From positions 1 through 39,439 of IMG/VR virus record IMGVR_UViG_3300046740_000696: 39,439 nucleotides of DNA; one strand, given 5' to 3'. This document shows, one piece after another, positions 2,056 to 36,840 of the stretch. Source of the DNA: a virus. The notes under the pieces are model-generated. The model worked only from the letters and a program-made list of their open reading frames with translations. It searched no databases and was not told the DNA's origin. The position numbers and the translations under genes were made by a program. Position 1 is the stretch's first letter, and each line of letters begins with the position of its first letter.

Positions 2056-3990
2056 TTACTCCATTTCCAGCATCGCCGCGCGCAGCGAGAGATCGTCGGT
2101 GAGCGGCGTCAGGACGCCGCGCAGCCGTGCGATCTCGGCCTTCGCGCCGACTACCGCCTCGGTGCCGTACGCCGTCTCGTAACCCGCCACGCGTCCCATG
2201 ACCGTTGCAAGATCTTCGAGGAGGCCAGCCGCGACGGTAGGGCTCACCGTCGCGCGCGCCGCGGCGAGATCACACTCGGCCTTGATCGCGTCTTCCGTGC
2301 GCGGCGCAGCGCCCCCGTGGCGCATCTTGCGGCGCTCGTCTTCATCGACGATCCGCTTGGTGGTGTTCACCCGAGCGCGCTCCTTCGCAAGCTCGGTGGC
2401 CTCGTCGAGATCCTTGGCGATCTTCGCAACCTCGGCAGACAGGCCACGCGACATCGAGCGGAACAGGTCGGGCCCCGTGGTCACAGCGATCGTGTCGAAG
2501 TCTCCCCACAGCGGCTCGATCGCTTCGACGAGCGCGCGGACGGCAACGGCCTCGCCACCCGGGACGTACCAGTGTGGGCCACGCTTGACGCCGTAGTGCT
2601 CGCGCTTGATGACGCGCTGTAGCCACGCGGTCAGGTCCTCCGACTTGAGCCGCTCCGTCGCGATGGCCGTCGCGTAGTGGCTGCGAATCTGCGACGCGAG
2701 CGCCGTGTCACCGTCGAAAGCGAGCGTCGAGTCTTCCCGCAGGTCAACTACGAGCGCGATGCGTCCATACTCATCGCCAGCCGTGGCGTTCTTGCCGTTC
2801 GTCGTAGTCGTACCGACTTGCCAGCGCGCCTTGATTCCCGACGGGCAAGAAGTCTGCGGCAAACGCTTGGTGTGCCACGCCATGCCGCGGACCGAGTCCA
2901 CCGCGCGACCGGCGTGCGCCACAGCGCTCGGAGACTTCGGCTCGATGCTCGAACGGTTGATCGCCGCAAGTGCGTCGGACACTTTCCCGAGGGCCGTGTG
3001 GCCCCCACCGATCCATCCGATCTGCAACGGGCCACCCGCAGCGACCGAGCCGGCGATCAGCTCGCGTGAGTTGATCAGGCCTCGGACGTTGCGCGCGGCG
3101 TCGCTGTCGAGCGTGCGATTGATCGTGCCGTCACCGACACGCAACGCCGCTTGACGCTGCGCGCGCGGCATGTCGAACACCGAGCGACCGTCACGGGTGT
3201 TGTCGTGCGTGATGCCGGTGCTCGTCGAAGCGTTCGGAGCGCTCGGGGCAACCGTCACGCGCTCGACGGGCGCGACGGGCGCGCGGCTCGTCTCGACGAT
3301 GGTCCCGAGCGCCGTCTCGACCGTCTCACGCTCGGCGCGTGCCGGAACGTTCACCGGCGCTGCCTCGATCGAACAGATGCAGTAGGTCGCAGTGCCGTGC
3401 ACGATGCCCGTGATGCGCACGAGGTTAGGCACACTGGAACCGTTGCGGCGCACATCGAGGATGTCACCGACGCGCACGAAGTCTCGACCGGAGGGAACGC
3501 TCGCACCCCACTGCCCGGTGTGGGGGCCGCTCTTGATGCGGCTGTAGCTCGCGAGCCGCGGGGCCGTCGCTGCGCGGTTGAGTGCGTCGATAGCGGGCGA
3601 CAACACCGCGTCAATAGCGGGCGTCGCAACGGGCGCCACGGGGGCCACGGGGGCCACGGGGGCCACGGGGGCCACGGAACGCGCCGCTGCAAGCTTGGCG
3701 TCCTCGACACGGATGGCTGCGAGCTTGATGTCCTTCGCGGCACGCACCGCGGCCTTGCCGTGGCCTTCGGGCTGCGTGCGGAGGGTTTCCACGATTGCAC
3801 AGAGCGCCGCGAACGCGAGGCCCGGGGGGACCGGGATGATCGCGTTGATCGCGGCAATCGCCGTCAGGGCCCACAGGGGCAGTTCGGGCGCGTCGGGCGC
3901 CTTGGAGGGCAGGGGATCCATTTCGAGCAGAGCAAAGCGCTCTGCGGAGTCGGTGGAGTCGGTGGCCTCGGGGGTGATCTCTGCGGTCAT
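2056..3990 (-). CDS. large unknown phage protein with VAP repeats (644 aa)
   Basis: The visible parts are an acidic N-terminus (about residues 1-30), a hydrophobic stretch near 40-70 that may be membrane-associated, a (VAP)n linker encoded by a 9-bp tandem repeat, and a compact C-terminal region containing WLQRVIKREHYGVKRGPHWY, then VPGG and a long charged helix. I see no P-loop or polymerase motif. I chose ATG 3990 because GAGGACACCCCC precedes it, the pattern of its neighbours; ATG 4017 (with AAGGA) is an alternative that adds nine residues. It is the first gene leftward from the control region, so it is probably expressed early. Function unknown. Confidence 0.72.
   Translation of the reverse strand: MTAEITPEATDSTDSAERFALLEMDPLPSKAPDAPELPLWALTAIAAINAIIPVPPGLAFAALCAIVETLRTQPEGHGKAAVRAAKDIKLAAIRVEDAKLAAARSVAPVAPVAPVAPVAPVATPAIDAVLSPAIDALNRAATAPRLASYSRIKSGPHTGQWGASVPSGRDFVRVGDILDVRRNGSSVPNLVRITGIVHGTATYCICSIEAAPVNVPARAERETVETALGTIVETSRAPVAPVERVTVAPSAPNASTSTGITHDNTRDGRSVFDMPRAQRQAALRVGDGTINRTLDSDAARNVRGLINSRELIAGSVAAGGPLQIGWIGGGHTALGKVSDALAAINRSSIEPKSPSAVAHAGRAVDSVRGMAWHTKRLPQTSCPSGIKARWQVGTTTTNGKNATAGDEYGRIALVVDLREDSTLAFDGDTALASQIRSHYATAIATERLKSEDLTAWLQRVIKREHYGVKRGPHWYVPGGEAVAVRALVEAIEPLWGDFDTIAVTTGPDLFRSMSRGLSAEVAKIAKDLDEATELAKERARVNTTKRIVDEDERRKMRHGGAAPRTEDAIKAECDLAAARATVSPTVAAGLLEDLATVMGRVAGYETAYGTEAVVGAKAEIARLRGVLTPLTDDLSLRAAMLEME
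3631..3675. repeat. 9-bp tandem repeat inside a coding region
   Basis: Five units of GGGGGCCAC (the first with one change) lie head to tail and encode repeated Val-Ala-Pro on the minus strand. The repeat stays in frame, so slippage would change linker length by three residues without breaking the protein. Confidence 0.9.
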
Positions 3991-4202
3991 GGGGGTGTCC
4001 TCGGGGGTGGGGGGCATGTCGGCTGTCCTTGCGGCGTCTTTCCCGCCGCGCCGTTCGAACAATCGGTAACCACCTTATCCAATCCATGGACCTACCCTCT
4101 ATCCAAGTAGTTTCGCATAGTTAGCTGGTTTTGCCCGGTTGGATATGGTGAAGACCTGACACTTTCTGTTTAACACCTGACGGTTTTACAGCGCAAACAG
4201 AT

Positions 4203-4665: not shown

Positions 4666-4688
4666 CTGTCAGATCGTCGACGTAGACT
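4666..4688 (+). promoter_or_regulatory. class A promoter, leaderless start at 4695
   Basis: CTGTCAGATCGTCGACG followed by TAGACT begins one base after the repressor's stop codon. Six bases separate the hexamer from ATG, so transcription should start at or next to the start codon. Confidence 0.75.
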
Positions 4689-4694
4689 CGTCGC

Positions 4695-5048
4695 ATGATC
4701 GCAGCCGTTCAGACCAACCGCGGGCTCTGCATCGTTCAGTGGACGGGCCGCGGCGCCGGATTCATCCCCAGCGTCGAGACGCGTACGTACTGCAAGCTCT
4801 CCGTGCCCTCGAGCGACAACGGGGTTTGGCAGCTGCACGACAGTGGGGCTACGTGCGAAGTCTGCAAAGCCGAGCTTGCTCGAGTTTCGCCGCCCCCGAC
4901 GTTTCCGTTGATGATTGCGCCGCCACTGTCGAAGTACGACGAAGAGCTCGCGGCGATCAAGCTCGAGTTTGCGACGCTGCGCGCGCAGATCGACGATCTC
5001 AAGTCGCAGGTACGCAGCTTGACCAATCCTGATCGAGCCTACGAATGA
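4695..5048 (+). CDS. unknown 117-aa protein with a coiled-coil C-terminus
   Basis: The N-terminal 60 residues look like a small beta-rich domain (GLCIVQWTGRGAGFIPSVE) with Cys34 and a CEVC pair near residue 54 that could bind a metal. After a proline-rich linker (SPPPTFP), the last 40 residues (YDEELAAIKLEFATLRAQID) have a heptad pattern typical of a coiled coil. No ribosome site is needed if the mRNA is leaderless from the class A promoter. Its stop overlaps the next start. Function unknown. Confidence 0.72.
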   Translation: MIAAVQTNRGLCIVQWTGRGAGFIPSVETRTYCKLSVPSSDNGVWQLHDSGATCEVCKAELARVSPPPTFPLMIAPPLSKYDEELAAIKLEFATLRAQIDDLKSQVRSLTNPDRAYE

Positions 5049-5263
5049 GCCATCGCAGCCGATACAAAGGCTCTCGGCTCTATCGGCGCCCGCTCGACTA
5101 CGCGAAGCCCGAGACCGTCGAGCAGCTGATCGCGCGCGGCTTGCGCACCGGCGCGATCGAGCGCTGCCCGCACTGCATGCAGTCCAAGATCCGTTGCAGG
5201 GCCAACGGATGCGGACAGCGGCATCTACGTGTGCGCATCACCGGTGCAGGCACAAGCGCTTAG
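5045..5263 (+). CDS. small zinc-ribbon-like protein (72 aa)
   Basis: Four cysteines in CPHC and CRANGC, around residues 40-56, with neighbouring basic residues (QSKIRCR) suggest a zinc-binding knuckle and nucleic-acid contact. The ATG overlaps the preceding stop (ATGA). The last four bases overlap the end of the converging gene at 5260. The N-terminus is also basic (SHRSRYKGSRLYRRP). No family name can be given. Confidence 0.7.
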   Translation: MSHRSRYKGSRLYRRPLDYAKPETVEQLIARGLRTGAIERCPHCMQSKIRCRANGCGQRHLRVRITGAGTSA

Positions 5264-8488: not shown

Positions 8489-10837
8489 TCAGCACTTCGA
8501 GTAGCTGCATTCGGGGCAGTAGGGGCATCCTCCGTCGCGTACGAGCGACGCCTTGTGACACTGCGGACAGAAGTCTCGTCGGATCGTCGACGATGTTTCT
8601 GCTTTCGCGTCCGGCGCGACGGCCTTCGGCGCCGTGCGCTGTAGGTACTCGTAGATGATTTTCGAGATCGCATCTGGCGCCGAGACGATCTTCGTCTCGC
8701 CGCGCCCGATGACCTCGCCGCCGCCGATGTCGGCGAGCTGCTCGCCGAGCTTGCGCAACCGATCGCGCGGCGAGGATCCCGACGGCAGTTGCAGCATGAA
8801 GCTTCCGGTGCGCCCGAGAGCTTCGGTCCACGCGCCGATCTCGGAGCCGCCTTTGCCGATACGTACGAAGATCTCGAACGGCTGCGCGTCCGATGGGTGC
8901 TCGTTGATCGTCACGTGGACGCTACCGAAGCTCGTCGGCTTGGTGCACGTCGAACCGTCGCGCCAGCCATCGGAGGGGACGCGACGATGCGTCACCGACG
9001 GCGTGGGCCACTTGGGCGCCTGAACACCGATCAACGTCTTGTCGATGGGCGGAACGAACGATTCGAAGACGGCGGGCTCGACGGCAATCGGTTTCGAAGC
9101 TTCGGGCTTTGCCACACCAGCGGTCAGCACTTGCTTGTCACGACAACCGTCGCGGTAGACCGTGATGCCCTTGCAGCCCGACGCCCACGCCAGTCGATAC
9201 GCGCGATCGACATCTTCGACCGTCGCATCGCGACGAAGATTGATCGTCTTGCTCGCGCCGTCTTCGGTGTGCGCCTGAAACGCCGCCTGCATCCCGATGT
9301 GCTCTTCCATCGTGAGCTCGCTAGCGACGCGAAGGATGTTGCGCCAGTGTTCAGGAACGGCGGCGCAACCTTGGATCGAACCAGTGTCTGCGATCGCTGC
9401 GCTGACCTCGTATTGCCAGAAGCCTTCGCGGCGAGCGATCTGCTCGACGAGCGGATTGAACTCGGGCATCTGCGTACCAGCTTGGTTACGCGTGATCGCG
9501 AGCGCGAACAGCGGCTCGATTCCGCCGGAGCAACCCGCGATGATGCTAATCGTTCCCGTCGGTGCGATGACGGTCACCGTCGAGTTGCGGCGCTTCTTGT
9601 CGCCACGCTTGGCGTAGGTCGACTTGTCCCAGTGGAAGAACGCACCGCGTTCGATAGCAAGATCTTCACTTGCTTGAACCGCCCACCCGTTGATGTCAGC
9701 CATTAGCTTCTTGGCGAAGTCTCGTCCGGCCTGGGAGCCGTAGGGGATGCCGAGCATGATCAACATCTCGGCGAAGCCCATGACGCCGAGGCCGATCTTG
9801 CGAGACTTCGATGTCACGTCGGCGATCTCCGGCAACGGGTACTCGCTCGCAAGCAGCATGTTGTCGAGGAAGCGAACGGCGTTCCTAACGGTTATGCGAA
9901 GCCGCGTACTTTCAACGATCGGTGTTGCACGGCCGATCGCGTCGACGAAGTTGGCGAGGTTGATCGACCCGAGACAGCACGCATCGAGAGGCCGCAGCGG
10001 CACCTCGCCACAAGGATTTGTCGCCTCGCACAACCCAAGCTCCGTGAGCGGATCGCGCTCGTTCGTGCGATCGATGAACCAGAGGCCCGGGTCGCCGATC
10101 TTCCATGCGTGCTCGGTGATCGCTTTCCAGACCTTCGGTGCGTTGAACTTGCCGCAGACTTCGCCGGTGCGAGGATGCACGATGTCGTAGTCGCGATTCT
10201 CCTCGAGCGCCTTCATGAATTCGTTGGTGATCGCGACGCTGATGTTGAAGTTCTGCATCGCGCTCGAGTCGCTCGACTTGAGCTCGATGAACTTCATCAG
10301 ATCGGGATGGTCGCAGCGCAAGATCCCCATGTTCGCGCCGCGTCGCACACCGCCCTGCTTGATCTGCTCCGTCGCGTAGTCGAAGATCTTCATGAACGAG
10401 ATCGGCCCGGACGCGATTCCCATCGACGAATGCACGAAGTCGTCTTCTGGGCGGATCCGCGAGAACGAGTAGCCGACGCCACCACCACCTTTGAAGATCA
10501 GCGCCGCGCGGCGTAGCGCCTCGAAGATCTGCCCCATGTCGTCTTCGATCGGGACGACGAAACAGGCGTTGAGATGCCCGGTGCCGTCGGGGCGCCCGGC
10601 GTTGACCAGGCACGGCGTGTTCGGCATGAAGTCACGCCGAGCCATCATGCGGTAGAACACGACTTCCGATGCATTGCGTCCCGCGTCGTCATCCTCGACG
10701 CTAGCGATGCGCTCGGCGACGCGACGAAACAACTGCTTTGGCGTCTCGACGACGGCGCCGGTTGCGTCTTTGATCAGGTAGCGCTTGTTGAGGACAGTCA
10801 GCGCATTGGCGGTCAGGACCGGCTCGATGTCTTCCAC
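8489..10837 (-). CDS. nrdJ: adenosylcobalamin-dependent ribonucleotide reductase, class II
   Basis: It reduces ribonucleotides to deoxyribonucleotides with a B12-derived radical, needing oxygen neither present nor absent. Landmarks are MPNTPCLVNAG (Cys76), a glycine-rich FKGGGGVGYSFSRI, NPCGE at 274-278 with the active-site Cys276 and Glu278, APTGTISIIAGCSGGIEP, a TSCPD-type segment near residues 640-690 (TCTKPTSFGSVHVT), and a C-terminal zinc ribbon with redox cysteines (CPQC and CPYCPEC). At 782 aa it looks complete. The start is GTG 10837, six bases after a class A promoter hexamer, with no ribosome site. It heads the operon leading to the glycosyltransferases and triplicated genes. A thioredoxin-like protein at 24456 could be its reductant. 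Confidence 0.95.
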   Translation of the reverse strand: MEDIEPVLTANALTVLNKRYLIKDATGAVVETPKQLFRRVAERIASVEDDDAGRNASEVVFYRMMARRDFMPNTPCLVNAGRPDGTGHLNACFVVPIEDDMGQIFEALRRAALIFKGGGGVGYSFSRIRPEDDFVHSSMGIASGPISFMKIFDYATEQIKQGGVRRGANMGILRCDHPDLMKFIELKSSDSSAMQNFNISVAITNEFMKALEENRDYDIVHPRTGEVCGKFNAPKVWKAITEHAWKIGDPGLWFIDRTNERDPLTELGLCEATNPCGEVPLRPLDACCLGSINLANFVDAIGRATPIVESTRLRITVRNAVRFLDNMLLASEYPLPEIADVTSKSRKIGLGVMGFAEMLIMLGIPYGSQAGRDFAKKLMADINGWAVQASEDLAIERGAFFHWDKSTYAKRGDKKRRNSTVTVIAPTGTISIIAGCSGGIEPLFALAITRNQAGTQMPEFNPLVEQIARREGFWQYEVSAAIADTGSIQGCAAVPEHWRNILRVASELTMEEHIGMQAAFQAHTEDGASKTINLRRDATVEDVDRAYRLAWASGCKGITVYRDGCRDKQVLTAGVAKPEASKPIAVEPAVFESFVPPIDKTLIGVQAPKWPTPSVTHRRVPSDGWRDGSTCTKPTSFGSVHVTINEHPSDAQPFEIFVRIGKGGSEIGAWTEALGRTGSFMLQLPSGSSPRDRLRKLGEQLADIGGGEVIGRGETKIVSAPDAISKIIYEYLQRTAPKAVAPDAKAETSSTIRRDFCPQCHKASLVRDGGCPYCPECSYSKC

Positions 10838-10843
10838 CGAGCA

Positions 10844-10866
10844 AGCTTACGCCGACGATCTGACAG
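10844..10866 (-). promoter_or_regulatory. class A promoter of nrdJ, leaderless GTG start
   Basis: CTGTCAGATCGTCGGCG then TAAGCT, with one change from the common form. It ends six bases before the GTG at 10837. Confidence 0.75.
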
Positions 10867-15575: not shown

Positions 15576-15598
15576 AGCCTACGTCGACGATCTGACAG
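15576..15598 (-). promoter_or_regulatory. class A promoter, leaderless start at 15567
   Basis: CTGTCAGATCGTCGACG then TAGGCT. It lies in the 46-base gap after the spike gene at 15614. Confidence 0.75.
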
Positions 15599-22875: not shown

Positions 22876-22898
22876 TTGTCAGATCGTCGACGTAATCT
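22876..22898 (+). promoter_or_regulatory. class A promoter, leaderless start at 22906
   Basis: TTGTCAGATCGTCGACG then TAATCT begins at the base after the preceding stop codon. Seven bases separate it from ATG. Confidence 0.75.
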
Positions 22899-24455: not shown

Positions 24456-24815
24456 TCAACGATTCGCGTTCGTAGCCGCGAGCAACACGTCGTAGATCTC
24501 TTGGTCGCTGATCGCGCCCTCGTGCCGAACCGGATGCGCGTTGTGCATCAGCAAGATCGTCGTCGGCATGCTCGAGATCTGGTAGGCGTCGCAGAGCGCT
24601 TGGAGCTGCGCGTCCTTCGACGTCGCGTCGAAGATCGCGACCGGGATCTGCCCACGCGTGTAGCTCTTGCCAATCTCGTGCTGCTCGAACTGCGCGCCGT
24701 TCGCGCGCCAACGCTTGAGCTCCTTCTCGAGCCGCGGCAAGTAATCGTGGCACGCATGGCATCCCGGCATCGCGAAGACGAGGATCAGCGCTCGCGTGTT
24801 TCCGAGATCGCTCAT
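24456..24815 (-). CDS. thioredoxin-like protein (119 aa)
   Basis: ALILVFAMPGCHACHDYLPR holds a CHAC redox pair (Cys19 and Cys22) after a beta strand, and SSMPTTILLM supplies the cis-proline (Pro84) of the thioredoxin fold. VAIFDATSKDAQLQAL fits the middle strand and helix. It should exchange disulfides in the cytoplasm. Candidate partners are NrdJ, whose C-terminal cysteines need a reductant, or the Cys-rich small proteins of this region. It is leaderless from a class A promoter. Confidence 0.85.
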   Translation of the reverse strand: MSDLGNTRALILVFAMPGCHACHDYLPRLEKELKRWRANGAQFEQHEIGKSYTRGQIPVAIFDATSKDAQLQALCDAYQISSMPTTILLMHNAHPVRHEGAISDQEIYDVLLAATNANR

Positions 24816-24821
24816 TCACCA

Positions 24822-24844
24822 AGCCTACGTCGACGATCTGACAA
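24822..24844 (-). promoter_or_regulatory. class A promoter, leaderless start at 24815
   Basis: TTGTCAGATCGTCGACG then TAGGCT, six bases before ATG. It starts five bases after the stop of the upstream gene. Confidence 0.75.
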
Positions 24845-25867: not shown

Positions 25868-26518
25868 CTAGGCGGCTTTCTTCGCGCCAAGCTTGACGTC
25901 CTTCGGCTCCGTCGCGGTCAGCGTCTTCTTCTCCCAGTGGACCACCACGAAGCGCCCGAACGGCCCCTTGCGCGCCGGACGGAAGTCACCGAGACCGATC
26001 TTCGAGCCGAGATCGTCGACGAGCAGCCGGACGATCTTCTCGTCGAACATCGACTCGTCGACGGTGAGCGTGAAGCTGATCCGCCACGTATCGAAGCGCG
26101 GGCGATGGCACATCATGCGGCCCGACGTCGACGGGTTCACGACCGAGCGCGAATCGACTTCCCACCTGACGGGCCCACCGTCGGGATTTTCGATCTCGCA
26201 CTCGATCTCGTCGATCGAGATACCCGCGGGAACGAGCGACGACTTGCCCGTCGTGATCTGCTTGCGCCCCGCCTTGTGGAACGTTCCGGCGGCGACGATG
26301 CCCGCGAAGACGTTCGGCCCCGGGATCATGGGATCGCCCGTCGGCGTCAGGTAGAGCTTGGGCTCGGCCTGTTCGCGTGGGGTGCCCTTACCGCCCGTGG
26401 TGATGGCCGAGCTCGAACCGGCGCTGACCTTGGCCGCGTTGGCCTCGGTGAAGCGGTTGCACAGCAACGGGGTTTCCCCCTGGATGCTGCATGCGATCTT
26501 GACTTTGTTGCCTGCCAT
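25868..26518 (-). CDS. unknown phage protein with PLLCNRF motif (216 aa)
   Basis: The start (VKIACSIQGETPLLCNRF) and the end (KGPFGRFVVVHWEKKTLT) resemble an unnamed group of phage proteins that open with a G-x-TPLL-x-N-x-F motif. The rest is beta-rich with a disordered loop near residues 30-50. I do not know its function; a nucleic-acid-binding role is only a guess from the ferredoxin-like look. Expression is unusual: a class A promoter lies 57 bases upstream of the ATG rather than six, and the leader can fold over the ribosome site. Confidence 0.7.
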   Translation of the reverse strand: MAGNKVKIACSIQGETPLLCNRFTEANAAKVSAGSSSAITTGGKGTPREQAEPKLYLTPTGDPMIPGPNVFAGIVAAGTFHKAGRKQITTGKSSLVPAGISIDEIECEIENPDGGPVRWEVDSRSVVNPSTSGRMMCHRPRFDTWRISFTLTVDESMFDEKIVRLLVDDLGSKIGLGDFRPARKGPFGRFVVVHWEKKTLTATEPKDVKLGAKKAA

Positions 26519-26575
26519 AGAATCTCCGACGCGATGGGTTGGACGCTGCGATACAGCGTCGAATCACATCGGAGA
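26519..26575 (-). promoter_or_regulatory. leader RNA hairpin covering the ribosome site
   Basis: Read on the minus strand, TCTCCGA (26575-26569) pairs with TCGGAGA (26529-26523), which contains the GGAGA ribosome site. Inside lies GACGCTG/CAGCGTC with a five-base loop (26560-26542). The ATG follows four bases after the outer stem. The outer stem would hide the ribosome site until opened by heat, a protein or a ribosome. Confidence 0.6.
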
Positions 26576-26597
26576 CACTACGTCGACGATCTGACAG
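26575..26597 (-). promoter_or_regulatory. class A promoter with a long leader
   Basis: CTGTCAGATCGTCGACG then TAGTGT. This is the only one of the ten copies followed by a real leader, 56 bases to the ATG at 26518. Confidence 0.7.
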
Positions 26598-26605
26598 CGA
26601 AGCGA

Positions 26606-26935
26606 TCAGGAGCGCGTGTCGACCGGTATCGCTTCGGAGATCGCGACGGAGATCTGCCCGTTGGCGCCTGGCGTCGCGGCGAACAACTTCTGTCCGGGCA
26701 TGACGACGAAGATGTCGCTCTGCCCCGCCGGAAGGTTGTAGACGCCAGCGAACGCCGGCGCTGACTGCAGAGCCGAGCCGTCGTGGGCGAGCAGCACGGT
26801 CGAACCGAGGCTGATGTTACGTACAACCACGCGCAGCGGCGTCTTCGTCGCTTGGACGACAAGTGCCGGCTTTCCAACATCATCGGTGGTCGTTACCGAC
26901 GGTACGGCGAAGCTGTCGAGGCGGGATTCCTTCAT
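26606..26935 (-). CDS. small beta-rich protein (109 aa)
   Basis: The product is almost all beta-type sequence (PLRVVVRNISLGSTVLLAHD, IFVVMPGQKLFAATP, GQISVAISEAIPV), with Gly/Pro turns and no Cys or membrane span. It follows the coat-like gene at 26967 by 31 bases. A small barrel next to a coat gene could be a cement, penton or spike-base protein; this rests on position and composition. Confidence 0.65.
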   Translation of the reverse strand: MKESRLDSFAVPSVTTTDDVGKPALVVQATKTPLRVVVRNISLGSTVLLAHDGSALQSAPAFAGVYNLPAGQSDIFVVMPGQKLFAATPGANGQISVAISEAIPVDTRS

Positions 26936-26966
26936 GGCTTGTCAGCTCGTAGAAGTAGAATCCTGC

Positions 26967-27485
26967 TTACCGGTTTTCACCCGGTGGCGCCACCGTGAGC
27001 AAGAACCCTTGGAACGTGATCGCGATGAGCAGCTTGGCGATCTCGAGATCGGTGAAGCCCGCCGGGAACGCGTCCACGTCGCAGACCACTTGGATCTGGT
27101 TCGAGGTAACGAGGTAGTGCGGATCCGCGAATTCCCACGTCCGCTCGCTCGAACCCTTGACCATCACGTCGATGCGCGTCGGGTTCTTGGTCATGACGTA
27201 GTCGAGGCCGATGTCGGTGATCTTCAGCTTGACCAACGCGGCCATCAGCGACTCCGTCGGCATGTTCACACCAGAGTCGAATACGATCACGTTGCTCGAG
27301 TCGGCGCCGTAGACGCGCGGGATCATCCGATGGATCTCGAACGGCTTGTTCACGTTGTTCGAGAACGTCGTGTCCGGGAACTGAAAGCCCGGCGTCGATG
27401 CGGCGAGGAACAGCTCACCATAGAGCTCGTACGGCTCGCGCTCGGTGATCAGCCTGTTCGCCCACGTAGCTGGAAGACGACCCAT
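26967..27485 (-). CDS. candidate coat protein (172 aa)
   Basis: Start ATG 27485 has GAGGAG six bases upstream, the strongest ribosome site here; upstream codons in the same frame belong to the divergent promoter gap. The sequence alternates strands and turns, with NNVNKPFEIHRMIPRVYG near residues 43-60 and a late DLEIAKLLIAITFQGFLLTV. The order of these blocks (N-x-P near a hydrophobic-Tyr-Gly block, later an aromatic-N strand) loosely matches the 28010 and 38773 proteins, so it may be a third single-jelly-roll-like coat protein. No database check was possible. Confidence 0.6.
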   Translation of the reverse strand: MGRLPATWANRLITEREPYELYGELFLAASTPGFQFPDTTFSNNVNKPFEIHRMIPRVYGADSSNVIVFDSGVNMPTESLMAALVKLKITDIGLDYVMTKNPTRIDVMVKGSSERTWEFADPHYLVTSNQIQVVCDVDAFPAGFTDLEIAKLLIAITFQGFLLTVAPPGENR

Positions 27486-27531
27486 GAGTAGCTCCTCGGC
27501 GCGCGGTTTAATTCTTTGCGCGTCGACGGGA

Positions 27532-27537
27532 AGCATA
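27532..27537 (-). promoter_or_regulatory. possible promoter hexamer of the coat-like gene
   Basis: TATGCT lies in the 76-base divergent gap, 46 bases before ATG 27485. If used, this mRNA would have a normal leader, in keeping with its strong ribosome site. Confidence 0.4.
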
Positions 27538-27561
27538 ACGCAAACGACGGAGATCAACCAA

Positions 27562-27909
27562 ATGGCAACGGCAGCGTCGGTACCGCCGCAGATCGAATAT
27601 TACTGCCCCAAGGTCACGCCCAAGGTGCTTCTCGTCAAAGGCCCGTCGGGGTGGGTCGAGACGTTCAAGCGCGCCCAAGTCGATCAGGAGCTCGTGACGT
27701 TCATGTCACCGGCGCCGATCGATCAGGTCGTGGGCCTGTTCATCAAGATTCGCGAGTCGGCCGACGAGCCGGAGCCGACGACGTGGCAGACCGTCATCGG
27801 CTTCATCGGCCGAACGATGGGCTGCACGCCGCTCGCGGTGCCGCACACGGTCGGCCTCGCGTTCTGGGCGCGCGTCGTGCTCGCGTCACAGGAACGCGCG
27901 CACAACTGA
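27562..27909 (+). CDS. unknown 115-aa protein
   Basis: ATG 27562 has GGAGATC nine bases upstream; longer frames run into the divergent gene. The product begins MATAASVPPQIEYYCPKVTP and has a helix with hydrophobic residues near the end (VPHTVGLAFWARVVLASQE) that could be a short amphipathic membrane contact. It is the only plus gene between 23637 and 30400, with a hairpin element at its 3' end. Function unknown. Confidence 0.68.
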   Translation: MATAASVPPQIEYYCPKVTPKVLLVKGPSGWVETFKRAQVDQELVTFMSPAPIDQVVGLFIKIRESADEPEPTTWQTVIGFIGRTMGCTPLAVPHTVGLAFWARVVLASQERAHN

Positions 27910-27966
27910 TTCTCGGCAACGCCTTGTGTTGCCTCGCAACGCGGTGCAGCGCCCAGCAAACCAAGG
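27910..27966 (+). repeat. 3' hairpin element ending in GCAAACCAAGG
   Basis: The element starts at the base after the stop. GGCAAC (27915-27920) pairs with GTTGCC (27928-27933). The exact 11-mer GCAAACCAAGG closes it at 27956-27966. Confidence 0.65.
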
Positions 27967-28002
27967 CTTCGTCTCGTCGAAGATCTCAACAACGAGACGA
28001 AG
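27967..28002. terminator. 11-bp hairpin between converging genes
   Basis: CTTCGTCTCGT and ACGAGACGAAG form a perfect 11-bp stem with a 14-base loop, between the ends of the 27562 and 28010 genes. It can serve both strands. There is no U-run, so a classical intrinsic terminator is not proven. Confidence 0.6.
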
Positions 28003-28009
28003 AGCTCGA

Positions 28010-28720
28010 TCAGACCACGTTGCGACGAATCAAGCCGTACAGGTACGTCTTGACGTCGGCGAACGTGAGCGCGGTCGAGCCGTCGGACGCCGGCTGCGAG
28101 ATCACGAGCGCGGCTTCGGGCGAGAACGACAGCTTGTAGGCCAGGTTCTCACGCAGCCAGATCGGCAGCACGAGCGCGTTGCGATCGCGCGGCGACGGGA
28201 TGCCGTTCTGCGCGACCTCGAACGTCGGGTTCGTCGAGAACACCGAGTAGCCGTGGCCCTGCGGGTAGTCCTGCATCACGCCGAACGTGTACTTCTTGTC
28301 GTTGTACACGAACTCGAGGTACGTCACGCGATCGACGTTGAACAGGGTACGCAGCTGCGGGGGATCCGACAGCGCACCGCCGGTGTCGGCGAGGGTCGGC
28401 GCCGTCGATGCCGCCGTCGGGGCGCGCATCACGCGGACCATCTTCAGGCCGATGCCGTAGATGTACATCTCCCACGACATCGGAAGACCGGTGTCGCCGG
28501 AGCGCGGCACGTTGGTATCCACGCGCGTCGCCGAGCGGGTACCACCGCTGATCGGCTGCGAGCGGCCTGCAACGAACGCCTCGACGGGCGTCGTTTGTCC
28601 GTTGGTCAGCTGCACCGTCGAGTACAGCTTGTCGTCGATCCAGTCTTCGATCGAGACCGTCTGCCCATTGGGCAGAGTGATCGTCGTCGTTCCGGGGGCT
28701 ACGCCTACAGTGCCGGCCAT
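28010..28720 (-). CDS. candidate major coat protein (236 aa)
   Basis: AAGGAGAAGTGAC before ATG is a strong ribosome site, as expected for an abundant product. The chain is beta-rich without membrane spans. RVDTNVPRSGDTGLPMSWEM near residue 68, and SPRDRNALVLPIWLRENLAY late in the chain, recur in the 38773 protein at the same relative places, so the two are paralogs. A pair of related beta-rich proteins next to membrane proteins is what one sees with two-coat-protein viruses such as P23-77, whose coats are single jelly rolls. The fold assignment is an inference. Confidence 0.65.
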   Translation of the reverse strand: MAGTVGVAPGTTTITLPNGQTVSIEDWIDDKLYSTVQLTNGQTTPVEAFVAGRSQPISGGTRSATRVDTNVPRSGDTGLPMSWEMYIYGIGLKMVRVMRAPTAASTAPTLADTGGALSDPPQLRTLFNVDRVTYLEFVYNDKKYTFGVMQDYPQGHGYSVFSTNPTFEVAQNGIPSPRDRNALVLPIWLRENLAYKLSFSPEAALVISQPASDGSTALTFADVKTYLYGLIRRNVV

Positions 28721-30534: not shown

Positions 30535-30581
30535 GCCTGATCACGACGTTGCTGATCCTTTCGCCCCAAACCGCTTCCGCG

Positions 30582-31097
30582 ATGGCCTCGCACGCACGCG
30601 AGCGATCATGGGTGATGTTCATGCAAGCGAGCTCGCCGTGCAGCGGCGCCGGGCCGATCTTGATCGAAGCGATCAAGGGCTCGAGCCTTCAGGCACGGCT
30701 CAACGCGCTCAGCATCGACAACGCATTCGAAGTCATGTTGATCGGCTTGGTCGAGACAGCGGAGCCCGAGCTCCACGCCGAGGAGATCGTCAAAGCCTAC
30801 GCCGACGGATCCCACCTGCATGACGACTGGTACAAGGCGACGCCGGGGTTGCTCGCGTTCATTCAACACGTCGGTCAAGAGCCGCTACGCGTGTTGCTCG
30901 CCGAGACGCATCCCGGAGGCCTCAGCGAGACACCAGTCGACGTCAACACGATGGCGAAGATCTTGGGCGTCTCCGTTCCGACGGTTCGTCGAATGGAGAA
31001 AGCCGGCGAGATTCCGTGCATGCGTTGGGGCCCGGGGCGCATCTTGCGCTTCGTGCCGCGCGATGTTCTCGCGAGCTTGGCGCGTCGCCAGCGCTAG
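30582..31097 (+). CDS. protein with C-terminal MerR/excisionase-type HTH (171 aa)
   Basis: The last 60 residues, VDVNTMAKILGVSVPTVRRM then EKAGEIPCMRWGPGRILRFV, are a good match to the helix-turn-helix-17 (excisionase/MerR-like) plan with its wing. The first 110 residues are helical and unlike known effector domains. It should bind DNA; the palindromes just upstream are candidate sites. I use ATG 30582; TTG 30549 or ATG 30615 are possible, and no ribosome site separates them. It could be a transcription factor or recombination directionality factor. Confidence 0.7.
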   Translation: MASHARERSWVMFMQASSPCSGAGPILIEAIKGSSLQARLNALSIDNAFEVMLIGLVETAEPELHAEEIVKAYADGSHLHDDWYKATPGLLAFIQHVGQEPLRVLLAETHPGGLSETPVDVNTMAKILGVSVPTVRRMEKAGEIPCMRWGPGRILRFVPRDVLASLARRQR

Positions 31098-31103
31098 CGA
31101 ACG

Positions 31104-31126
31104 CTGTCAGGTCGTTGGAGTAAGCT
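31104..31126 (+). promoter_or_regulatory. class A promoter, leaderless GTG start at 31133
   Basis: CTGTCAGGTCGTTGGAG then TAAGCT, the most changed copy in the second half of the box. Six bases to GTG. Confidence 0.7.
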
Positions 31127-31132
31127 TCGATC

Positions 31133-31483
31133 GTGGCTCGCAAGAAAACCAAAACGAAGCCGACCAAGAAAGCGCCCGCACGTACTTGGCTTGCCAAGAC
31201 GCGGGCGATCTACCGAGACCTGCATCAGCTCTTCGACGATGCGCCGGATCTCGACAAGGCCCTCGAGCTCGCCCGCAACGTCGCCGGCATCGGCGCGGCG
31301 TATTCGTCGGCGATCGTCGGCAAGAACCCCGACAACGCGGTCGTGCTGCACCTGAACGACCCGTTCGCGCGGTTGCTACACGCGATCAACGATCACGTTC
31401 AGGCCTCGAACGCCGATGCCGATGCCGTGATCACGAACCTGATCCCGAAGATCGGCGAGGGCAACGCTGCGACGGCTAACTAG
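31133..31483 (+). CDS. unknown 116-aa protein with a basic N-terminus
   Basis: The first 25 residues are Lys/Arg-rich (ARKKTKTKPTKKAPARTWLA), then the protein is helical (DLDKALELARNVAGIGAAYS) with no Cys or span. The start is GTG, six bases after the promoter hexamer. It stands as a single-gene unit between two class A promoters. Function unknown; DNA binding by the tail is possible. Confidence 0.68.
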   Translation: MARKKTKTKPTKKAPARTWLAKTRAIYRDLHQLFDDAPDLDKALELARNVAGIGAAYSSAIVGKNPDNAVVLHLNDPFARLLHAINDHVQASNADADAVITNLIPKIGEGNAATAN

Positions 31484-31506
31484 CTGTCAGGTCGTCGACG
31501 TAAGCT
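31484..31506 (+). promoter_or_regulatory. class A promoter, start at 31518
   Basis: CTGTCAGGTCGTCGACG then TAAGCT begins at the base after the preceding stop. Eleven bases to ATG, so a leader of a few bases is possible. Confidence 0.75.
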
Positions 31507-31517
31507 AGAGCCTCATC

Positions 31518-31754
31518 ATGATCGCCTGCCCCAAGTGCAACTCCGAGAGCACGCGCGTTCGCGAGACGCGCAACCACAAGGAGAAGCGCTACGCCCGTCG
31601 CCGCATGGAGTGCGACGAATGCGATCACAGATTCACGACGATCGAAGTCGTCGCACCGAACGCGCGCGCCGTGTCGACGGATCCCGTTCTGATCTCGCGC
31701 TCGGCGTTGGTGGCGCTCACGCGAGCTCTCGATGCCGTCGAAGACGAAGACTAG
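31518..31754 (+). CDS. NrdR-like zinc-ribbon protein lacking the ATP-cone (78 aa)
   Basis: CPKCNSESTRVRETRNHKEK, then RRRMECDECDHRFTTIEVV, is the zinc ribbon of NrdR, the repressor of ribonucleotide reductase genes, with both CxxC pairs and the FTT turn. Host NrdR is about 150 aa because an ATP-cone follows; here only 25 unrelated residues follow, so nucleotide sensing must be lost. It may compete with host NrdR at its boxes or bind phage DNA. It lies directly before the MazG-like gene and the genome encodes NrdJ, which supports a nucleotide-metabolism role. Confidence 0.75.
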   Translation: MIACPKCNSESTRVRETRNHKEKRYARRRMECDECDHRFTTIEVVAPNARAVSTDPVLISRSALVALTRALDAVEDED

Positions 31755-31777
31755 CTGTCAGATCGTCGACGTACGAT
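31755..31777 (+). promoter_or_regulatory. class A promoter, leaderless start at 31786
   Basis: CTGTCAGATCGTCGACG then TACGAT begins at the base after the preceding stop. Eight bases to ATG. Confidence 0.75.
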
Positions 31778-31785
31778 CAATCTTC

Positions 31786-32175
31786 ATGACGCCAGACGAA
31801 TACCAAGCGCTCGCGAATCGCACCGAGTACACGCCCGATTTCGTGAGGCTCGAGGGCAGAAGCCCCGAGCACAACTTCATGATCGCGCGGCTGATCCACG
31901 CACAGCTCGGCCTCGCCTCCGAAGCCGGAGAGATCGCCGACGCGCTCAAGAAGCACATCATCTACGGCAAGGCGCTCGACGAGCTCAACGTCTTCGAGGA
32001 AGTCGGCGATCACAGCTGGTATTCGGCGCTGGCGTGCGGCGCGATTCGTCGAGGGTTCGAAGACGCGCTCGCACGCAACATCGACAAGCTCAAGACGCGC
32101 TACCCCGACAAGTTCACGCAGGACGCCGCACTGAATCGTGATCTGTCCGCAGAGCGCGCCGCGCTCGAGAAGTAG
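31786..32175 (+). CDS. MazG-like nucleotide pyrophosphohydrolase (129 aa)
   Basis: RLIHAQLGLASEAGEIADAL gives the first acidic pair (Glu46, Glu49) and FEEVGDHSWY the second (Glu72, Asp75): the E-x2-E...E-x2-D metal site of the all-alpha NTP pyrophosphohydrolases. Such enzymes split NTPs or dNTPs to the monophosphate, for example to clear unwanted nucleotides or alarmones. The length suits the short phage form. The start is ATG 31786, set by the class A promoter. A multi-hairpin element follows its stop. Confidence 0.85.
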   Translation: MTPDEYQALANRTEYTPDFVRLEGRSPEHNFMIARLIHAQLGLASEAGEIADALKKHIIYGKALDELNVFEEVGDHSWYSALACGAIRRGFEDALARNIDKLKTRYPDKFTQDAALNRDLSAERAALEK

Positions 32176-33403: not shown

Positions 33404-33426
33404 CTGTCAGGACGTTGCAGTAAGCT
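33404..33426 (+). promoter_or_regulatory. class A promoter, leaderless GTG start at 33433
   Basis: CTGTCAGGACGTTGCAG then TAAGCT, six bases before GTG. The second half of the box differs from the common form at three positions. Confidence 0.7.
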
Positions 33427-33432
33427 TGGTTG

Positions 33433-33732
33433 GTGGCTTTAGTCGTTCACTGCAGTCGCGCGCCGTTCGACGTATACATCGGGCGACCTTCGAAGTGGGG
33501 CAACCCGTTCTCGCACATGCCCGATACGCTGGCTAGATGGCGCTGCGCAACGCGAACCGAGGCGATCTCGCGCTACGAATCGTGGATTCGAGCGCAGCCC
33601 GAGCTCGTGGCTGCGCTCGTCGAGCTCGACGGCAAGATACTCGGGTGCTGGTGCAAACCCCACGCGTGCCACGGTGACGTACTCGTGCGCCTAGTCTTCG
33701 AGCTCAAGAACCCTACGCTGGAAAATCTTTGA
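33433..33732 (+). CDS. DUF4326 family protein (99 aa)
   Basis: The family signature is clear: VHCSRAPFDVYIGRPSKWGN, then a TRTEAISRYESWIRAQPELV helix, and LGCWCKPHACHGDVLVRLV near the end, with Cys and His that may bind a metal. DUF4326 proteins are common in phages and plasmids and have no established function that I know of. The start is GTG 33433, set by the promoter; TTG 33430 is in frame. The last 20 bases overlap the converging gene. Confidence 0.88.
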   Translation: MALVVHCSRAPFDVYIGRPSKWGNPFSHMPDTLARWRCATRTEAISRYESWIRAQPELVAALVELDGKILGCWCKPHACHGDVLVRLVFELKNPTLENL

Positions 33733-34405
33733 TCTTCGCGACGGGCAGCTCGATACCGAACCGATCGATTCCGGGTAGCGTCGTGTCGAGCGCGATGAAC
33801 CTGTTGCCGGTGCCCTTGGGCAGCAATCCGCCGGCGTAGATGTGCGACCAGTCGTTGTCGCCCTTCTGCCTGACGACGCGAAGGATCGGCGTGATGCCGT
33901 TGAGGCTCAGCAAAGTCGAGTTGAGGATGGCCTGATCGTCACAGTCCCCGCCGCCGAATTCGAGCGTCCGACGAGCGCTCTGGTACAGATCGATGCCCTC
34001 GACGTTGCCGTCTTCCCAGATGATCGGAGCGACATCGCCGGTGTAGCGAACTTTCCGCTTCACGTAGTTGTAAATCGCCTGCGCCTCGCATAGACCATCG
34101 CGCTCCGGGCAGCGCGACGTCACCTGCAAAGCGATCTTGCGCATCTCGGGATCCTGAACGCTCGATCGAACCTTCTTCTGGATCTCGGCGAGCCGCTGCT
34201 CGATCGGCATGTTCGGCGCGCCACGGAGGATCGTCCGCATGTTGCCGTCGCTGTAGCTGTTGATGATCGGAGCCTCGTTGGCGGCGTGGCCGAAGCCCAT
34301 GACGCCGCCGTACTTGCGCTGACGGTAGTAGGCGATCCCGCCGAGCAGGATCATCCCGAGCCCGGAGAGCCCGGCGATAAGAGCAAGACCGTTCGGCTTC
34401 GCCAT
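33713..34405 (-). CDS. membrane-anchored transglutaminase-like cysteine protease (230 aa)
   Basis: One span near residues 6-27 (GLALIAGLSGLGMILLGGIA) anchors the protein. The rest follows the transglutaminase-like fold: CEAQAIYNYVKRKVRYTGD, the catalytic GGGDCDDQA with Cys155, WSHIYAGG with His188 and ALDTT with Asp207. Such phage proteins may process structural proteins, cleave wall peptides or cross-link; which is not known. The start is ATG 34405 behind TAGCCT. Its 3' end overlaps the DUF4326 gene. Confidence 0.8.
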   Translation of the reverse strand: MAKPNGLALIAGLSGLGMILLGGIAYYRQRKYGGVMGFGHAANEAPIINSYSDGNMRTILRGAPNMPIEQRLAEIQKKVRSSVQDPEMRKIALQVTSRCPERDGLCEAQAIYNYVKRKVRYTGDVAPIIWEDGNVEGIDLYQSARRTLEFGGGDCDDQAILNSTLLSLNGITPILRVVRQKGDNDWSHIYAGGLLPKGTGNRFIALDTTLPGIDRFGIELPVAKIKDFPA

Positions 34406-34413
34406 CGTTCCCA

Positions 34414-34419
34414 AGGCTA
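34414..34419 (-). promoter_or_regulatory. class B promoter hexamer, start at 34405
   Basis: TAGCCT in CGTGATAGCCT ends eight bases before ATG. It touches the palindrome at 34421. Confidence 0.62.
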
Positions 34420-34420
34420 T

Positions 34421-34432
34421 CACGGGCCCGTG
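34421..34432. promoter_or_regulatory. 12-bp palindrome between divergent promoters
   Basis: CACGGGCCCGTG is a perfect palindrome placed exactly between the leftward TAGCCT and the rightward TACGGT hexamers. One bound protein could control both genes. Confidence 0.5.
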
Positions 34433-34433
34433 G

Positions 34434-34439
34434 TACGGT
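34434..34439 (+). promoter_or_regulatory. class B promoter hexamer, start at 34446
   Basis: TACGGT ends six bases before ATG 34446. Confidence 0.58.
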
Positions 34440-34445
34440 GAATCC

Positions 34446-35732
34446 ATGCTCTTCCACCGTGGTCTTGGGGCCCTTCCGGCCGCGCTCGTGCAGTCGGCAA
34501 ACGCGATCAAGGCGCAGCCGAGCGGCAGTGGAAGCATCTACCAGCCGCCGACGTGGGGCACCAACACCTGGGATCAGGTGAAGGCCAAGCATCTCGCGTA
34601 CGCGACGTACGCGAACGATCGAGATTGGATCGACGCTGCGACGCTGGCGAATACGCTTCCGCCGTGTCCTGCCGGCTCGATGCAGAAGCCGAAATGCCTC
34701 ATGTGCCGCCCCTACTGCTACAGCGGCAACTTTCAACGAGCGTTGCCGCCGGGCACGTTCGAGGTTGCGTTCGTGCCGTTCCACATCGCCGAGCTCTCGA
34801 CGGTCAAGAGCTTCGCGAAGACGTACAGCCCGGATGTCGAACAACGTTTTTGGGCCGAGTGGTTCATCGTGAGCGCCGGACAAGAAGCGCTCTACAACGC
34901 GTTCACGAGCAAGCTCACCTCGCAGATGTTCTCGCAGACGTTCAACACGATTGACCCGTCGGTTACCCAAGCGCTGCAGTGGTTGCCGGATGCTCGCGTG
35001 TCGCTCGTTAACTTCTCGCTCAACCCGATCGCGCCGACGGATGCGGAGATGCACGGCAGCGGTGGTGCAAGGGCCTGGCTCAAGCGCGGCGGATACTTCT
35101 TGTCGTACGGCATGGCGACCGGCACGAAGGCCATCAAGACGTGGTGCCCGTCGTGGGCAACGTCGGTCTACTGCAACTGCGGCGGCATGCCGTCCGCGCT
35201 GATGGGTGTCTTCCGCGAGAACGGCACGGTTCAGACGCTCGGCGTTGATCCCACCGAAGATCTGAGCGGCGGATGCTTCGACGTCTACATCAAGATCGAC
35301 CAGCACCCCGACGGCAATTTCTCGATGTCGTTGAAGCACCAAGATCCGGCTTGGTACGAGCGCGCGGCCGTCGCGATCAGCGGCGTGCTTCGCTCGATGG
35401 CGACGGGGCTCTGCGCGCTGGCGCCAGTCGTAAAGTCGCAGACTGCAACGATGCTCGCCGAGAAGTGCGCCAACCCCAAGACCAAGGCCACGTGCATCAA
35501 GGGGCAAGCCAACTGCAAATGCACGACGCCGAACGCGACGGCGCAGGGCGCAGTGGTGCTCAACAACTTCGTCATGAGTCAGTGGTGCGCTGGCTGGAAC
35601 GCCGAGTACACGCAACCGCCTCCGTTGCCGCCGCCTGGATCAGACATCGGCCCACCGCCGGCTAACACCTTGCCGTGGTACATCATCGTGGGTGGCGTTG
35701 CCGGGATCGCGTACCTCCTAGCCCGCAAGTGA
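34446..35732 (+). CDS. large tail-anchored Cys-rich protein (428 aa)
   Basis: The soluble part of about 395 residues has many Cys (PKCLMCRPYCYSGN, WCPSWATSVYCNCGG, CIKGQANCKC) and reads as mixed alpha/beta. A proline-rich stalk (PPPLPPPGSDIGPPP) leads to one span (PWYIIVGGVAGIAYLLARK) at the very end. Such a protein would project from a membrane by its N-terminal side. A vertex, entry or tube-forming role is possible, but no family was recognised. It heads a plus-strand run of membrane genes. Confidence 0.75.
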   Translation: MLFHRGLGALPAALVQSANAIKAQPSGSGSIYQPPTWGTNTWDQVKAKHLAYATYANDRDWIDAATLANTLPPCPAGSMQKPKCLMCRPYCYSGNFQRALPPGTFEVAFVPFHIAELSTVKSFAKTYSPDVEQRFWAEWFIVSAGQEALYNAFTSKLTSQMFSQTFNTIDPSVTQALQWLPDARVSLVNFSLNPIAPTDAEMHGSGGARAWLKRGGYFLSYGMATGTKAIKTWCPSWATSVYCNCGGMPSALMGVFRENGTVQTLGVDPTEDLSGGCFDVYIKIDQHPDGNFSMSLKHQDPAWYERAAVAISGVLRSMATGLCALAPVVKSQTATMLAEKCANPKTKATCIKGQANCKCTTPNATAQGAVVLNNFVMSQWCAGWNAEYTQPPPLPPPGSDIGPPPANTLPWYIIVGGVAGIAYLLARK

Positions 35733-36588: not shown

Positions 36589-36665
36589 TGAGCCGCCTGA
36601 TGTTCTGGCGCGTCTTCACGCACGTCGTGCTCGCCTACCACGACAAGGCGAATGGCCGTCGCTAA
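36588..36665 (+). CDS. possible 25-residue peptide
   Basis: ATG overlaps the preceding stop as TGATG and the frame runs 25 codons (MSRLMFWRVFTHVVLAYHDK and on) to TAA at 36665, overlapping the next start by 14 bases. It fills an otherwise odd 63-base gap in a tight operon. The peptide is basic and aromatic. It could be a true micro-protein or only a coupling frame for the next gene. Confidence 0.4.
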   Translation: MSRLMFWRVFTHVVLAYHDKANGRR

Positions 36666-36840
36666 GCGCTACGAAGGTGATGACGAACGCTGCTTGACCT
36701 GCGGCGAGGCGTACAGCCAAGACCCGACCGATCGCGCGACGTTCTGCTCCGACAGCTTTCACATGTGCCGCAGCTGCAAATGGCGCGACGGGAAGCTCGT
36801 CGCACGTTGCAACTTCCACCACGTACGCTTCGCGCGGTAA
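36652..36840 (+). CDS. small Cys/His zinc-finger-like protein (62 aa)
   Basis: CLTC near residue 14, then FCSDSFHMCRSCKW and ARCNFHHVRF, give six Cys and several His in finger-like spacing. It probably binds one or two zinc ions. The start ATG 36652 has AAGG just upstream. The stop TAA at 36838 is part of the next promoter hexamer. No family name can be given. Confidence 0.65.
   Translation: MAVAKRYEGDDERCLTCGEAYSQDPTDRATFCSDSFHMCRSCKWRDGKLVARCNFHHVRFAR

Follow-up and report, generated by a model that had tools for sequence, protein, structure and literature searches.

What could a phage do with the DNA-reading part of NrdR once the nucleotide sensor is gone? NrdR is a near-universal bacterial repressor of ribonucleotide reductase (RNR) genes, and binds DNA only when ATP and dATP are both bound. 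The window analysed here, a 39,439-base IMG/VR virus sequence, contains an open reading frame of 78 aa with an ATG start at 31518-31754 on the plus strand (product sequence: MIACPKCNSESTRVRETRNHKEKRYARRRMECDECDHRFTTIEVVAPNARAVSTDPVLISRSALVALTRALDAVEDED). The original prediction was that this protein keeps the NrdR DNA-binding ribbon, lacks the ATP-cone and, in a genome that encodes NrdJ, could block host NrdR sites or act as a constitutive regulator. The gene and its parts are:

31518-31754, plus strand, gene for an NrdR-type zinc ribbon protein of 78 aa without ATP-cone (ORF call, Pfam, TIGR00244, six-frame ATP-cone search)
31524-31646, plus strand, zinc ribbon domain, residues 3-43, with C4, C7, C32 and C35 as Cys ligands
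31698-31745, plus strand, C-terminal helix, residues 61-76, occupying the place of the ATP-cone; conserved in L073 (VLVRRSALNALVKAM)

Residues 3-43 matched the Pfam family PF22811 (Zn_ribbon_NrdR) with 46.9 bits (E 2.6e-12; cut-off 27.2), the Cys spacing being C-x2-C-x24-C-x2-C. The model of full-length NrdR, TIGR00244, aligned through model positions 2-45 of 147 only; the score obtained, 41.3 bits, was far below its cut-off of 124.65. A search of the window in all six frames with the ATP-cone family PF03477 gave no match, ruling out a frameshifted or hidden ATP-cone. Further, mazG starts at 31786, 31 nt past the stop codon of the ribbon gene, so that no frameshift hides a C-terminus of the ribbon protein. 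The G+C content of the three codon positions (0.61/0.48/0.82) was similar to the values of unambiguous genes, for example nrdJ and mazG.

In the AlphaFold2 model of the protein, a ribbon predicted with confidence (block pLDDT about 82-92) is followed by a flexible linker and the C-terminal helix 61-76. When the predicted ribbon was searched with Foldseek, NrdR structures occupied ranks 1-13 among the PDB matches, all with probability 1.00 and with rmsd values of 1.2-2.4 Å over 43-52 columns, while the next-ranked match was far weaker. The ribbons of RNA polymerase, found further down the list, showed weak similarity. A derivation of the tail from the ATP-cone was rejected, as its alignment to the ATP-cone start was no better than that of shuffled sequences (p 0.19-0.91). 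As predicted from the start, the product of 31518-31754 is almost certainly an NrdR-type zinc ribbon without the nucleotide sensor.

The genomic setting was explored in eight related phages (L062-L069; contigs of 70-138 kb), identified via the protein encoded at 28010-28720. This structural-looking product had no Pfam match and no match in the phage record collection. The stretches 25868-28720 and 33713-34537 encode a conserved protein block common to the 70-138 kb phages; the products of 25868-26518 and 26967-27557 had no Pfam match, and that of 33713-34537 is transglutaminase-like. All eight related phages carry a helix-turn-helix (HTH) gene beside the locus and the transglutaminase at its far side, and the cassette between the two is variable. 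In the window, the genes around the ribbon gene are:

30549-31097, plus strand, HTH_17/MerR-like DNA-binding protein (Pfam), in the same place in 8/8 related phages; left edge of the variable cassette
31133-31483, plus strand, gene of unknown function directly upstream of the ribbon gene; a 29% identical homologue is present in L062
31786-32175, plus strand, MazG-type nucleotide pyrophosphohydrolase, the gene after the ribbon gene (PHROG 229, 131 bits)

The HTH_17/MerR-like protein, kept in nine related phages if the window is included, is itself a candidate regulator. Phage L062 contains homologues of the 31133 gene and of MazG in the same order, the ribbon being absent. Phage L065 has two ribbon genes, one inside the cassette and one elsewhere, and the product of the latter is the one most closely related to the window protein (45% identity, 73 aa including the tail, E 2e-14; VLVRRSALNALVKAM aligned against VLISRSALVALTRAL). 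Judging from this alignment, the ribbon-plus-helix design is inherited. Since just one of the eight related phages has a ribbon, the gene is accessory. The window also encodes two more small Cys-rich proteins, possibly zinc-binding, at 5045-5263 and 36652-36840; the second had no Pfam or PHROG match.

When viral contigs and phage genomes were scanned, 56 NrdR ribbon proteins of 50-114 aa lacking the ATP-cone were recovered from many unrelated phages; they formed 25 clusters at 60% ribbon identity, and none was longer than 114 aa. PF22811 was the best family for all 16 ribbon-only members scanned, and the ATP-cone was not found in 25 ribbon-phage records or in the further virus records searched with PF03477. 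The recurrence of ribbon-only proteins in 25 phage clusters indicates that the window protein is not a decayed one-off NrdR. Several supposed phage matches with full-length NrdR (L004-L009, Acinetobacter MD-2021a) were set aside, since they include the region of the ATP-cone and the majority come from unverified or metagenomic records. A single-protein scan of genomes found no close relative, and the fixed window motif gave only four single matches in IMG/VR, about chance level. A literature search of incomplete coverage found no study of ribbon-only phage proteins; the virus genome map of the STIV group, in a survey, has a gene labelled NrdR (PMC5894146).

Phage ribbon genes often adjoin replication, nucleotide-metabolism or terminase genes. 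MazG-like pyrophosphatases were neighbours in L031 and L013, ThyX and DUF3310 in L002, a 5-hmdU DNA kinase in L043, a dCMP deaminase in L082, a primase-helicase in L077 and a T7-like RNA polymerase in L081. Terminase genes were neighbours in L054, L057 and L058, and also in L010 (match just below the cut-off). In L056 the neighbours were adenylosuccinate synthetase and a YfbR-like nucleotidase, an arrangement reminiscent of PurZ/DatZ in 2-aminoadenine phages. Within that locus (2118-4189), the ribbon gene overlaps the gene for the YfbR-like HD nucleotidase by 4 nt, and the adenylosuccinate synthetase gene precedes the nucleotidase. The ribbon-only genes at 851-1081 in L080 and 5001-5231 in L081 lie immediately 5′ of a gene for a T7-like phage RNA polymerase. 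These neighbour listings suggest that the link between ribbon and nucleotide metabolism is apparently frequent but not universal. In whole ribbon-phage records searched with Pfam and PHROG models, which missed the MazG-like neighbours in L031 and L013, MazG was detected in 1 of 18 only; the MazG link is therefore not general. Taken together, the gene probably gives phages some control over the supply of nucleotides or over the expression of their own genes.

The cryo-EM structure of Streptomyces coelicolor NrdR showed R12, R26-29 and R37 to contact the DNA backbone, and D15 and R17 to form a specificity pair, with R17A abolishing binding; its tetramer is built by ribbon-ribbon pairing, not by the ATP-cone (PMC9110341). 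At NrdR positions 12, 15, 17, 26, 27, 28, 29 and 37, the window protein has R, E, R, R, R, R, M and R (its R13, E16, R18, R27-R29 and R38 correspond to S. coelicolor R12, D15, R17, R26-R28 and R37, and its M30 to R29). Seven of the eight DNA-contact residues are thus kept, D15 as a conservative E, and R29 is lost. Conservation of the backbone-contact arginines and the E-T-R motif extended from the window protein to the two ribbons of the related phage. A [DE][ST]R motif at positions 15-17 was present in 18 of the 25 phage ribbon clusters (13 of 19 after dropping those found via a pattern containing that motif); its absence from the other seven indicates that the targets of phage ribbons vary.

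The original prediction also placed the ribbon in a genome that encodes NrdJ, and this gene was confirmed:

8489-10837, minus strand, class II ribonucleotide reductase NrdJ (TIGR02504, 657 bits, cut-off 400), without ATP-cone; promoter-like element (see below) at 10865-10844

The link that this suggested between ribbon and NrdJ was not supported. An RNR match was found in none of the eight related phages, so that even the phage with two ribbons lacks NrdJ. Of the more distant ribbon phages, 25 records were searched, and only Synechococcus phage S-CRES1 gave an RNR match, below the family cut-off; the S-CRES1 record annotates a ribonucleoside-triphosphate reductase, and that of EBPR siphovirus 2 a 104-aa ‘RNR alpha’. 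Compared with the phage RNRs of best coverage, the window NrdJ has only about 33% identity; in the genome collection, the nearest enzyme belongs to a Chloroflexi metagenome assembly (44%), a match that does not identify the host. The absence of the gene from the eight related phages suggests that NrdJ was probably acquired recently. NrdR boxes, single or paired, were not found above chance in the window, including the regions upstream of nrdJ and of the ribbon gene, indicating that the phage's own nrd genes are not targeted via classical boxes.

A different repeat was found before these genes. The sequence TGTCAGNNCGTNGNNGTANNNT occurs 11 times in the window, on both strands, while 0.03 copies of its core are expected from shuffles; its final T, not a selection criterion, was present in 11/11 copies. 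The pattern TGKCAG-N10-TAnnnT occurs 11 times in the window and 20, 6, 3, 9, 0, 11, 1 and 8 times in the related-phage contigs G032 to G039, respectively; that is, 3-20 times in seven of nine family contigs, once in G038 and never in G036. The reversed pattern gave 0-1 copies in the same contigs, and TGKCAG-N10-TAnnnT was absent from three unrelated phages. Enrichment was limited to the 10-nt spacing, and the inner 10 nt vary between related phages. A start codon (ORF of at least 45 codons) lay 5-8 nt past the last T at 20 of 27 sites, as compared with 7% of random positions. The sites in the window, and genes associated with them, are:

4667-4688, 10844-10865, 15576-15597, 22877-22898, 24822-24843, 26575-26596, 26940-26961, 31105-31126, 31485-31506, 31756-31777 and 33405-33426, all element sites
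31485-31506, plus strand, element TGTCAG-N10-TAAGCT before the ribbon gene, 11 nt 5′ of the ATG
31756-31777, plus strand, element before mazG
31105-31126, plus strand, element before the 31133 gene
24456-24815, minus strand, thioredoxin-like protein, with an element at 24843-24822
33433-33732, plus strand, DUF4326 protein, with an element at 33405-33426

The element is therefore common to the genes for the ribbon, NrdJ, thioredoxin, MazG, DUF4326 and others. From its sequence, it looks like a -10 region accompanied by a TGKCAG box too near to be a -35 region, so that the messages would apparently lack a leader. In spacing, it is similar to the T4 MotA arrangement. The ribbon was considered as a factor for this promoter-like element, and this was disfavoured: G032, G037 and G039 have the element and no ribbon match in their contigs, so the ribbon is unlikely to be its activator.

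A DNA-binding regulatory role of the ribbon protein appears likely. Within it, a nucleotide-blind NrdR-type protein acting as an anti-repressor is the reading that we tentatively favour. The blocking of host NrdR sites or nucleotide-blind regulation put forward in the original prediction fits the ribbon anatomy. Two copies would pair via their ribbons, as NrdR ribbons do, and the pair would bind one NrdR-type box regardless of the dATP/ATP level. Such a pair could not assemble into the tetramer by which two boxes are kinked and clamped; lacking this clamp, it would more naturally compete with, or poison, host NrdR than repress. Either by occupying boxes or by pairing with host NrdR ribbons and spoiling the host tetramer, it might leave host nucleotide-reduction genes on during phage replication, and this derepression would supply dNTPs to the phage. 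As a precedent by other means, NrdR-box genes are strongly induced when phage SpSL1 infects pneumococcus (PMC6755750), and Cp-1 orf6 has been reported to interact with pneumococcal NrdR (PMC4840434). No ribbon was found in SpSL1 or Cp-1, so that SpSL1 is a precedent for the outcome only. Counting against the anti-repressor reading are the loss of R29, the seven clusters without [DE][ST]R, the accessory status of the gene and the location of several phage ribbons beside terminase, RNA polymerase or primase genes, not nucleotide genes. In addition, since full-length NrdR needs dATP, ATP and a tetramer for tight binding, a ribbon dimer may bind too weakly.

This same location feeds the main rival, and a strong one, in which the ribbon activates or represses the phage's own transcription at sites unrelated to NrdR boxes, much like P2 Ogr and other small zinc-finger regulators of phages; we consider it possible, if somewhat doubtful. 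Ribbon-only genes are often found within early or replication modules, or immediately ahead of genes for terminase or T7-like RNA polymerase (L010, L054, L057, L058, L081), the specificity pair differs among clusters, and the window ribbon gene itself has the family promoter-like element. However, the abundance of the element in the ribbon-less contigs G032 (20), G037 (11) and G039 (8) means that it does not need the ribbon, its asymmetry does not suit NrdR ribbons, which bind palindromes as pairs, and the window protein had no Ogr/Delta match. An unlikely alternative reading is that the ribbon has given up DNA binding and serves as an adaptor between proteins, with RNA polymerase, MazG or NrdJ as possible partners. 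Contacts between proteins are a common task of zinc ribbons, the fold search gave the weak similarity to RNA polymerase ribbons, and the Cp-1 interaction indicates that phage proteins can target NrdR itself; the backbone arginines and E-T-R, which the window protein shares with the two ribbons of the related phage, would nevertheless be needless in a pure adaptor.

The intact DNA-contact face, and an NrdJ of the phage's own without NrdR boxes, would also suit a constitutive repressor that turns off the RNR genes, and hence dNTP synthesis, of the host while the phage uses NrdJ. We regard this as very improbable, since repression by NrdR requires the tetramer and the ATP-cone, a dimer having no clamp (PMC9110341), and since most ribbon phages examined have no detectable RNR in their contigs and would be hurt by shutting off the host enzyme. 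That a host nrdR decayed into this gene and left it without function, as the missing ATP-cone might suggest, is barely credible: it has typical codon usage, its own promoter-like element and a homologous tail in a related phage, this tail has no significant similarity to the ATP-cone start, and short proteins recur in 25 clusters with none above 114 aa. Returning to the anti-repressor reading, its generalization is rather doubtful: here phages would, time and again, have cut NrdR down to a nucleotide-blind ribbon, and this ribbon would override the dNTP-sensing repressor of the host by box competition or tetramer poisoning. If true, it would represent a general viral way of keeping nucleotide synthesis on. 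A widespread set of sensor-less phage proteins with the NrdR DNA-reading face would lend itself naturally to anti-repression or rewired regulation, and would offer a simple tool for uncoupling DNA recognition from nucleotide sensing.

In comparison with known systems, the window protein shares with NrdR (TIGR00244; PF22811 plus PF03477; bacteria and archaea) the ribbon fold, the four Cys ligands, R12, D/E15, R17, R26-28 and R37. It differs in having no ATP-cone, 78 rather than about 150 residues, a short conserved helical tail and Met instead of R29. Ogr/Delta proteins (PF04606), the late-gene activators of phages, are likewise small regulators that bind zinc, and resemble the window protein in Cys pattern and Thr-x-Glu end; however, the second Cys pair of Ogr is spaced by four residues and that of the window protein by two, and PF04606 gave no match to the latter at E 0.1. 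The start-associated sequences of cluster K mycobacteriophages are, like the window element, phage-specific repeats beside the starts of non-structural genes (PMC3203893), while in the window element a -10-like TAnnnT is present and a Shine-Dalgarno core is missing, suggesting leaderless transcription, not a ribosome site. The short phage proteins of PHROG 36879, 10675 and 6504, families with no assigned function, were matched in their ribbon part (E 1.5e-8 to 4e-6) and not in their tails. The window protein fits this ribbon-only type, being phage-encoded and short, with PF22811 as best match and no ATP-cone.
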